The notes beneath the pieces were generated by a model. That model worked only from the letters and a program-made list of their open reading frames with translations. It had not been told where the DNA came from and searched no databases. Shown here piece after piece: positions 6,955 through 60,350 of a stretch of DNA of 64,000 bases (the first letter of the stretch is position 1; every line of letters starts with the position of its first letter). This stretch comes from Methanoculleus sp. 7T. Its GTDB lineage: Archaea > Halobacteriota > Methanomicrobia > Methanomicrobiales > Methanoculleaceae. The DNA is taken from contig NZ_JALPRP010000001.1 of NCBI RefSeq assembly GCF_023195915.1, forward strand, positions 806,001 to 870,000, read 5' to 3'. Position numbers and translations under genes: made by a program.

Positions 6955-7245
6955 GAACACCTTTGCCGGAGGGAGGGGACACCCGATTGCACCATCGGTG
7001 CTCATGCACCCGCTGTTCTGCCGGACACACCTCCACAGCCCCAGAAAGACCTCCGGTCTTCTCGAACTCCTGCCTCGCACCTCCGGTGCTCACACTCCTG
7101 TCCTACGAACAGTCGTTCCTCGAAACCCTTTGGGTTTCTCAAGCTCCGGTTCTCACGAACCATCGCACATTCCGGCAGTCGCTCCCCGCGTGGCGATATG
7201 CGACTGGCTGAAGGGCAGGAGCACCGGAGGTGCGGCTTACAATAG
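6955..7245 (+). repeat. Hairpin-string intergenic element, copy 1
   Basis: A run of short perfect inverted repeats with 3-4 nt loops: AAGACC-TCC-GGTCTT (7046-7060), GCACC-TCC-GGTGC (7077-7089), GAAC-AGTC-GTTC (7107-7118), GAAACCC-TTT-GGGTTTC (7122-7138) and GCACC-GGA-GGTGC (7221-7233). The word GATATGCGACTGGC near 7194-7207 also occurs in the 38.2-kb copy, which shows they belong to one family. Plus-strand frames across it are not protein-like. Confidence 0.7.
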
Positions 7246-28632: not shown

Positions 28633-28700
28633 AGCACATCATGTGCTGGCTGTGGTAAGTCCGACGTGCTCCCGTAAGCACTGCCCGCAAGGGCTCGGGA
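28633..28700 (+). other. Hairpin cluster upstream of rps15
   Basis: Three stem-loops lie in 70 nt: AGCACAT-C-ATGTGCT (28633-28647), GTGCT-CCCGTA-AGCAC (28666-28681) and GCCC-GCAA-GGGC (28683-28694), the last with a GNRA-type loop and flanked by TCCCG/CGGGA, which could pair in an alternative fold. They could be a small RNA, a leader regulating rps15 or relics of a repeat. No protein frame is credible here. Confidence 0.4.
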
Positions 28701-28769
28701 TTACAGAGAATAGTCAGTTAGCAGACTTTTTTCTGGACTTAACATAGTGTATCCAACGGAGGTGTATAA

Positions 28770-37596: not shown

Positions 37597-37689
37597 GGGT
37601 AAGAGGGATTCGCCTGACCCGCACCCGGCGGAACAGGCAGGCGTGAAGAGCGGTCAAATTTTGAGGAAAATAGGGTTCTGTTGAAACCC

Positions 37690-37990
37690 TACCTGTGGGC
37701 TCTCGATAGTCGCACTCATGGGGCACTCCAGTACACGGTTTTCCACCGGACTGCGCATCTAGCGATGTTCGAACGCCCACCAGCACGCCCGGGCGTTTAT
37801 CGCGCCTGGGGAGAGGCGATTCGCGGGGAGGGGGGCCCACCCCCAATCGAAACTCTTCGAGTTTCTCATGCTCCCTTCGGTCGCACTGCGCACCTAGCGG
37901 TGCTCGAGCTCCGCTCCTCCGGAGCATCGCACTCACCGGTCCCCACCCCCGGAGCGATACCCAGTCAAAATCCGTGCTCGGGGATGCGCT
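37690..37990 (+). repeat. Hairpin-string intergenic element, copy 2a
   Basis: Perfect inverted repeats GAAACTC-TTC-GAGTTTC (37849-37865) and GCTCC-TCC-GGAGC (37913-37925), a G-run/C-run hairpin (GGGGG-CCCA-CCCCC, near 37830-37843) and three copies of TCGCAC (near 37711, 37881 and 37927). The hairpin with TTC loop is identical to that at 60142-60158. Adjacent element 2b continues after 50 nt. Confidence 0.75.
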
Positions 37991-38039
37991 GAACTGGTAA
38001 AAGATCGGGTGTTGGATGCAGGAGAGTTACAAGGGTATG

Positions 38040-38400
38040 CAGGACCCTGATTTTCCTGACTGTTCCCGGACACTGGACCGTGGTGCTCTCGCCCTTGGGG
38101 GTGGGGCCGACGGGGAGGGGGGGCAAGCCCCCCTCCCCTGTCTCTCACAAGGGGATACCCTCAAACCCCCACCCCGCCCCTTGCGAGGCAGGGGCAGCCA
38201 TGGGGATATGCGACTGGCCGACGGGTGCGACGGACAACGTCCGGAGCTCGAGAAACCCGAAGGGTTTCGAGTCAGGAACACGAACACCGGAGGTGCGCAG
38301 TACGACGGACGCATGTCCGGAGTTCGAGTACCGTCAGGTGCGCAAGATACCACGGTTCACTGCAGGGAGACAAGCCAAGGGAAAAAGCCGATCCTAGGGG
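38040..38400 (-). repeat. Hairpin-string intergenic element, copy 2b (opposite orientation)
   Basis: Hairpins GGGGAGGGGGG-GCAAG-CCCCCCTCCCC (38112-38138), CGGAC-AAC-GTCCG (38231-38243), GAAACCC-GAA-GGGTTTC (38252-38268), CACC-GGA-GGTG (38285-38295) and GGAC-GCAT-GTCC (38307-38318). The loops GAA and GGA are complements of the TTC and TCC loops of copy 2a, suggesting the element lies inverted. GATATGCGACTGGCC near 38204 is shared with copy 1. No gene is credible between 37597 and 38503. Confidence 0.75.
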
Positions 38401-38481
38401 CAAACTAGGTCCAGCACCACCCTCAGCGGGGCAGGGAAAGACCTGAACAGGGTTTCAACAAAGCCGGAAAGAGAGCATTTC

Positions 38482-54084: not shown

Positions 54085-54380
54085 GCTCCGTTCCTCAAAA
54101 CTCTTCGAGTTTCTCATGCTCCGCTCCTCCAGAACATCGCACTTCGGAACGTCGCACTCTCCATGCACGGCTTTTCATCGGGTATCGCGTTTGGGGTGGG
54201 GCTGACGGGGAGGGGGGCCCGCCCCCCTCGTACCTAGCGGGTGCTCGAGCTCCCGCCCTTCGGCCGGTCGCACTCCCCATCGCCCCCTCCCCCCGGCGCG
54301 AGATCCACCACGGTCCACTGTACCGGGATACTTTCATCGTCCTGGCCGTCCCGATAGTCGCGACTCGCGCCTTCGGCCAC
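54085..54380 (+). repeat. Hairpin-string intergenic element, copy 3
   Basis: AAACTC-TTC-GAGTTT (54098-54112), the long hairpin GAGGGGGGC-CC-GCCCCCCTC (54210-54229) and TCGCAC at about 54137, 54151 and 54265. The neighbouring GGGGTGGGGCTGACGGGGAG matches copies 2b and 4. The element lies between the TIGR00725 gene start and ileS. Confidence 0.75.
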
Positions 54381-60049: not shown

Positions 60050-60350
60050 TTACGCTTCAGGATGTCGCACACCGGACACCGATTTACTGGGGTATCGCAC
60101 CTGGGGGTGGGGCCGACGGGGAGGGGGGATGCTCCCCCCTCGAAACTCTTCGAGTTTCTCATGCTCCCTTCGGTCGCACTCCCCTGTCCCCTCCCCCCTG
60201 CTTGCGATATCCTCCACGGTCCACTGCATGGGGACAAGTCCAAGGATAACCTGCATTCCACTTGCCACACCCTGGGCACGGCTTCCCACTAGATACCCCC
60301 ACAGTCCACTGTCCGGAGCGAGCCCGGAAAAAGAACCGGCAGACTGCCCC
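60050..60350 (+). repeat. Hairpin-string intergenic element, copy 4
   Basis: GAGGGGGG-ATGCT-CCCCCCTC (60121-60141), GAAACTC-TTC-GAGTTTC (60142-60158) and TCGCAC at 60065, 60094 and 60174. The preceding GGGGGTGGGGCCGACGGGGA matches copy 2b. The element fills the gap between the site-2 protease and the convergent radical SAM gene. Confidence 0.75.

Follow-up and report, generated by a model that had tools for sequence, protein, structure and literature searches.

Double-hairpin units inside an IS5-type MITE of Methanoculleus are candidate single-stranded DNA insertion elements

Introduction

The closest described analogues of the locus analysed here are the mitochondrial GC clusters (GC42) and the double-hairpin or repetitive hairpin-forming elements of fungi and sponges (PMC4478555, PMC2800124). 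These G+C-rich, intergenic elements of about 42 bp fold into two hairpins, among them hairpins with C-TTC-G loops (ACTCCTTCGGGGT), and are present in many copies. They show presence/absence polymorphism and merging of units and are flanked by short direct repeats (AG/ACT), and no mover has been identified for them. REP, BIME and REPIN elements, which are associated with RAYT transposases, are also short intergenic hairpins of high copy number that form clusters with inverted orientation, while IS200/IS605 elements make no larger target duplications (PMC2817692). The IS5-type MITEs of archaea have short terminal inverted repeats (TIRs) shared with insertion sequences encoding DDE transposases, 8-bp target duplications and no coding capacity. 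Finally, the searched passages of PMC8044849 describe G-rich hairpins termed recurrent potential G-quadruplexes (rPQS) in Methanomicrobiaceae, often located between gene ends.

Here we compare with these systems a locus of Methanoculleus sp. 7T at which an earlier note had reported strings of tiny hairpins whose stems change while pairing is kept. The window (the whole 64,000-nucleotide stretch that was analysed) comprises positions 806001-870000 of contig C1 of a 2.6 Mb genome.

Results

We counted perfect hairpins (stem of at least 5, loop of 3-4 nt) and compared the counts with 300 dinucleotide shuffles. Positions 37690-38400 contained nine hairpins against a shuffle mean of 1.9 (maximum 7), and 6980-7240 contained seven against a mean of 0.57 (maximum 3). 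The three hairpins at 60.0-60.3 kb were borderline, as 13/300 shuffles reached the same count, and at 54.1-54.3 kb the count alone was not significant (two hairpins; 41/300 shuffles as high). A covariance model of the unit detected full units at 6989-7233 and 54230-54272 (the latter with 46 bits, E 1e-11) and weak matches only, of 15.4 and 12.5 bits, at the 60 kb locus. Scanning with this model recovered further units in the window, in the genus and beyond, and the same hairpins were present in named loci of Methanoculleus and other Methanomicrobiales records. Together, these results confirm the hairpin strings at 37690-38400 and elsewhere and bear out the proposal that they form a dispersed element. 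Of the four hairpin-rich loci, two stand by count and the one at 54 kb by the model, while the one at 60 kb is borderline by count and weak by the model.

Examination of the flanks revealed that 37674-38465 is one IS5-type MITE with 17-bp inverted ends. The left TIR (37674-37690, + strand, GGTTCTGTTGAAACCCT; genus consensus GGCTYTGTTGAAACCCT) is 88% complementary over its 17 nt to the right TIR at 38449-38465. The conserved left arm (37674-37749, +) has 14 matches in the same genome and occurs in 22/35 genus genomes. The conserved right arm (38349-38465, +), which ends in the right inverted repeat, is 91% identical to the right-arm query and also has further copies in this genome. In the genus as a whole, 168-1233 bp lie between paired TIRs, and in the shortest complete copy (L039, about 199 bp) left and right arms are joined. 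Perfect 8-bp target duplications were found at 11 MITE loci of the genus (e.g., GGATAATC, CTTATGTC and GTATAATG); the duplication of the window copy has decayed. A full insertion sequence of 1010 bp with the same TIRs (L141; duplication CAAGCATC) encodes a 288-aa IS5-family transposase. This transposase had no match in the genome containing the window, and close relatives were found only in G001, G027 and G034. Since the partner transposase is missing from their genome, the window MITE copies look immobile now.

A second repeat, the 41-bp double-hairpin unit, fills the MITE interior and is far more abundant than the MITE itself. In a 1233-bp MITE copy of another genome (L121:1501-2733, G007:C1), which has a perfect 8-bp duplication, hairpin units of 47 bp are repeated in tandem over a long central stretch, which gives spurious long open reading frames (370-414 aa).

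Each unit consists of hairpin 1, a fixed linker, hairpin 2 and a TCG linker, according to the formula GCACC-loop-GGTGC, TC(G/A)NNCTC, variable hairpin, (A/G)TCG(CA/TT). In a second version, hairpin 1 is GAAACTC, GAAACCC or GAAGACC. The core measured 40-42 bp in 248/259 units, tandem arrays had a period of 46-47 bp, and no terminal inverted repeats were found in the unit. Units occur between MITE arms and also at many MITE-free sites.

Within the window MITE, the + strand carries a GAAACTC-type unit at 37849-37885 (GAAACTC-TTC-GAGTTTC, linker TCATGCTCC, degenerate second hairpin; 12.5 bits) and a canonical unit at 37890-37931 (GCACC-TAGC-GGTGC, TCGAGCTC, GCTCC-TCC-GGAGC, ATCGCA; 60.6 bits, E 8e-16). 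The - strand carries a GAAACCC-type unit at 38226-38268, read on that strand as GAAACCC-TTC-GGGTTTC and CGGAC-GTT-GTCCG (25.2 bits), and at 38301-38341 a unit opposed to that at 37890-37931, with a decayed hairpin 1 and the hairpin 2 CGGAC-ATGC-GTCCG (41.4 bits). This layout had been read as two elements lying head to head. By the model the units in the two halves are indeed opposed; however, they are not two elements meeting, since both halves lie inside the one MITE. At 38112-38138 (+) we found a long G-rich hairpin, GGGGAGGGGGGGCAAGCCCCCCTCCCC, of the rPQS kind.

The second locus (6989-7233) contains model matches at 6989-7029 (+), 7077-7117 (+), 7134-7167 (+) and 7199-7233 (-). The third (54109-54272, +) adjoins a G-rich hairpin and has matches at 54109-54141 and 54230-54272. 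At the fourth (60121-60178, +), a G-rich hairpin is followed by a GAAACTC-type unit (12.5 bits), an arrangement that recurs elsewhere as site C.

L153, L154, L187 and other loci have a third, larger repeat between MITE and units; it spans about 250 bp, and its ends are near GGATATCGCCA. The recurrent unit sites A, B and C are located in it, as are two long G+C hairpins, one of which is the published rPQS. Among site C units (L299/L295/L344), those preceded by a 5-mer with a final C (CTCCC) have GGTGG rather than GGTGC at the end of hairpin 1, so that a target base supplies one side of the outermost stem pair; this ending may mark one lineage or be a sign of templated arm extension.

Most Methanoculleus genomes contained at least 30 model matches and a subset of smaller genomes few copies; these genome-wide figures come from searches and are lower bounds. 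The unit-poor genomes of the genus are G011, G014, G020-G024, G028, G030 and G033. Beyond Methanoculleus, one other genus of the family had at least 27 matches, and 12 of the remaining Methanomicrobiales had 1-5. The GAAACTC hairpin and linker of the 37849-37885 type were present in 24/232 Methanomicrobiales genomes.

To ask whether pairing persists as stems change, we used sets chosen without regard to pairing, and the earlier claim held in them. Anchoring on the linkers alone yielded 77 distinct hairpin 2 inserts, which were 87% paired compared to 54% in arm shuffles (maximum 63%), and 42/77 had perfect stems compared to 5.9 (maximum 14). The 13 stem types are linked into a network, each differing from at least one other by a single base-pair step. 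In 43 diverse units that we aligned, each of the six helix 2 pairs had changed on both sides, with a covariation score of 0.365 against 0.097 +/- 0.013 in shuffles, a control that leaves the relatedness of copies in the statistic, and 0.02-0.06 for slid partners. Pairing thus exceeds that of shuffled DNA, which supports the suggestion that there is selection on pairing or a copy process that makes palindromes. Among the at least 78 listed matches to the relaxed pattern GAAACYCNNNGRGTTTC, all were C/G or T/A and none were mixed, while the loops were many and different.

Orthologous loci gave the same picture. Among 605 stem pairs compared, 34 had compensated and 54 one-sided changes, whereas about two compensated pairs would be expected from independent change (our estimate, assuming a 10% arm difference). 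Clear single steps were CGGCCG to CTGCCG (L181/L242) and GAAACCC to GAAACTC (L093/L176). Orthologous differences of two to three compensated pairs may reflect whole-unit replacement rather than stepwise change.

Compensated stem changes are normally taken as proof of functional RNA, and we considered whether the hairpins are selected as terminators, processing signals or regulatory structures in 3' UTRs. The units are mostly intergenic, their folds are stable, and the linked G-rich hairpin often lies between gene ends in the searched passages of PMC8044849. The loops follow a different rule. On the CTCC strand, hairpin 1 loops were TNC in 115/131 and TNNC in 63/77, and hairpin 2 loops were TNC in 82/104 and TNNC in 16/23; every N was used and closure was mostly C-G. 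Among background hairpins of the window, the corresponding figures were 10/105 for TNC/GNA and 9/100 for TNNC/GNNA. The opposite strand of the units thus bears cGNAg and cGNNAg loops. Inversion of the loop, which some routes of template switching would predict, was rare, with GNA-type loops in the canonical orientation at about 3/335. RNA tetraloops of the GNRA type are not what is kept, as only 3/63 hairpin 1 TNNC loops give GNRA on the other strand. GNNA loops belong to the stable DNA minihairpin type. DNA minihairpins with GNA triloops are likewise known for extraordinary stability (Hirao 1994 and Yoshizawa 1997, cited in PMC6479982). This extra stability is a literature value; the DNA parameter set from which we took folding energies has no bonus for GNA loops.

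Stems with one mismatch had G.T in 25 cases and A.C in 34, and therefore G-U pairing is preferentially tolerated on neither strand. Unit strand relative to tandem genes was 25:25 by rough gene calls, which took the longest ORF and cannot be relied on, since the arrays themselves give rise to long open frames (143 units were placed "inside" ORFs). At the Rfam gathering score the units had no match. The window matched only tRNAs and, at 28633-28704, an ordinary S15-Methanomicrobia ribosomal protein leader (RF03137). Since the loops are GNA/GNNA rather than GNRA and G.T is not preferred, pairing appears to act at the level of DNA rather than RNA; the loop rule, mismatch spectrum and strand neutrality all point to this, and selection of the hairpins as RNA is quite improbable.

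We next consider mobility. At orthologous sites, close relatives differ cleanly by the presence or absence of a single unit or of two; of the 41 clean indels recorded, many measured 44-48 or about 92 bp. Exact 5-bp direct repeats, CTTCG or less often CTCCC, flanked 48 units versus 15 expected, 37 versus 11.5 when only isolated units were considered, and 14/104 versus 5.4 after thinning. Flanking repeats of 6 bp were not found, and those of 4 bp numbered one or two, as by chance. Empty sites with a single copy of the 5-mer were identified at L299, L166 and L311, with CTCCC as the direct repeat in the L299/L311 comparison. In L232, compared to L299, a unit lies inside the second hairpin of another, as CGTTC[CTTCG CACC...GTCGCG]CTTCGGAACG, and the empty site has one CTTCG; in L105, compared to L166, a unit is similarly nested in hairpin 1 of another. 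Such nesting in loops is explained by the most frequent target, CTTCG, being identical to the C-TTC-G loop that units carry. Counted by flank complementarity, loop insertions (14 versus 11.3 expected) were not significant overall; about nine of these cases were clear CTTCG nests. Judged from these sequences, the data support the idea that the unit acts as a very small insertion element.

Several isolated units (L216, L234, L280, L306 and L318) are embedded in a short repeat of the host, CTTCGCGGCTTCGCGTGAG, which is itself hairpin-like and looks like a preferred landing site.

The units could instead have no mover of their own and be passengers, spread when 46-47 bp are duplicated in tandem or deleted, when dispersed copies of the repeats around them undergo gene conversion and when MITEs transpose, with template switching alone keeping the palindromes perfect. 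Tandem 47-bp arrays (L121, G008:C23) fit such a process, sites A, B and C recur inside the same larger repeats, and template switching is documented as making and maintaining perfect hairpins (PMC8794818). The recurrent sites adjoin long G+C hairpins and GCGATA motifs of the larger repeat. At sites A and B the two flanking 5-mers differ, and therefore part of the presence/absence there may reflect deletion, or gene conversion among dispersed copies. Two observations count against passengers: isolated units whose flanks are unrelated still show specific 5-bp direct repeats, and units nested in another unit's loop are bordered by an exact CTTCG repeat where the empty site is also known. We regard the passenger explanation as rather unlikely, and the strongest of the alternatives.

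The same observations bear on whether the units are chromosomal binding sites for a nucleoid or replication-related protein, with hairpin shape under selection. Although shape is conserved while sequence varies and the linkers are fixed, whole units are gained and lost between close relatives, the nested and decayed copies have the look of debris left by mobile elements, and units are nearly absent from other genera. Protein-binding sites are thus a very unlikely explanation.

The earlier note had suggested looking for a RAYT-like gene, and REP-like elements mobilised by a hairpin-recognising Y1 (RAYT/IS200-IS605) transposase would also be short, intergenic, oriented by one strand and abundant. 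In family searches, Y1_Tnp (PF01797) was absent from the host genome and from 26/28 genomes with hairpin strings, and exceeded the cut-off in 6/35 genus genomes; it was found chiefly in genomes poor in units, and most Y1-rich genomes are without the repeat. No GT(A/G)G head was found before the palindromes, whose flanks in alignment A1 are TCG(CA/TT) and TCGARCTC, and the 5-bp direct repeats differ from the behaviour of IS200/IS605 (PMC2817692). A Y1/RAYT mover was therefore rejected, and a REP-like origin is largely refuted and extremely improbable. G033 has 19 Y1_Tnp matches and no double-hairpin units, and within the genus the two seem mutually avoiding.

Two other candidates were also rejected. 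Reverse transcriptase (RVT_1) was found in only 3/35 genus genomes and not in the host, and the transposase of the MITE partner insertion sequence is in three genomes only. Our searches found no candidate mover for the units.

Discussion

We favour as probably correct a model in which the locus consists of nested non-autonomous mobile elements, an IS5-type MITE holding double-hairpin units that act as single-stranded DNA insertion elements. The outer layer is the MITE itself. Within it and at many other intergenic sites, the 41-bp unit would often duplicate 5 bp of target, CTTCG or less often CTCCC, on insertion. It could also come to sit in the loop of another copy, because the motif that it targets most, C-TNC-G, is also that of its own loops. 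The two hairpins would work as single-stranded DNA: the strand with C-G-closed GNA/GNNA loops could fold into very stable minihairpins when exposed, for example at a replication fork. As arms drift, hairpin-templated copying (template switching) would be the simplest route by which perfect complementarity is restored. Pairing may also, or alternatively, be kept because only folded copies can be moved. By family search, the inserting enzyme is neither a Y1/RAYT transposase nor a reverse transcriptase encoded by the host.

More tentatively, and as a possibility rather than our expectation, the unit may be 41-bp archaeal mobile DNA without gene or inverted ends, entering C-TNC-G, the motif of its own hairpin loops, with a 5-bp duplication and propagated via a folded single strand, with stems that are rewritten yet never unpaired; it would then correspond, on a chromosome, to the mitochondrial double-hairpin elements.

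Several features had escaped the earlier note: the MITE around the strings, the 41-bp unit and its period of 46-47 bp, the direct repeats of 5 bp, the units nested in hairpin loops, and the TNC/GNA rule that loops follow. Covariation in these units is very strong, yet their features point to DNA, and such covarying repeats should not be called RNA genes. The family is a natural test bed for how palindromes arise, stay perfect and move.

Several components resemble known systems. The outer element matches archaeal IS5-type MITEs in its TIRs, 8-bp duplications and lack of coding capacity, and differs from them in being packed with unrelated hairpin units of variable number. The GGGGAGGGGGG..CCCCCCTCCCC part of 38112-38138 is the known rPQS motif, intergenic and from the same genus; in the searched passages of PMC8044849 the MITE, the double-hairpin unit, the covarying stems and the direct repeats are not described. 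Our search of the open-access literature found no paper on the double-hairpin unit. The units share with REP/BIME/REPIN elements their short intergenic hairpins, high copy number and clusters with inverted orientation; unlike them, they lack the GT(A/G)G head and, in most hosts, a RAYT/Y1 gene, and have variable stems, 5-bp direct repeats and nested loops.

The likeness to mitochondrial GC clusters is closest, and we offer it as an analogy only, claiming no sequence homology. The units are likewise dispersed two-hairpin sequences of about 40 bp, G+C-rich, intergenic and numerous, with presence/absence polymorphism, merging, C-TTC-G loops and no identified mover; short flanking direct repeats were found in a minority of them. 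If our model is correct, they would be a chromosomal counterpart of the mitochondrial elements. They differ from these elements in residing on an archaeal chromosome, in having CTTCG/CTCCC repeats instead of AG/ACT, and in stems that vary with compensation between fixed linkers.
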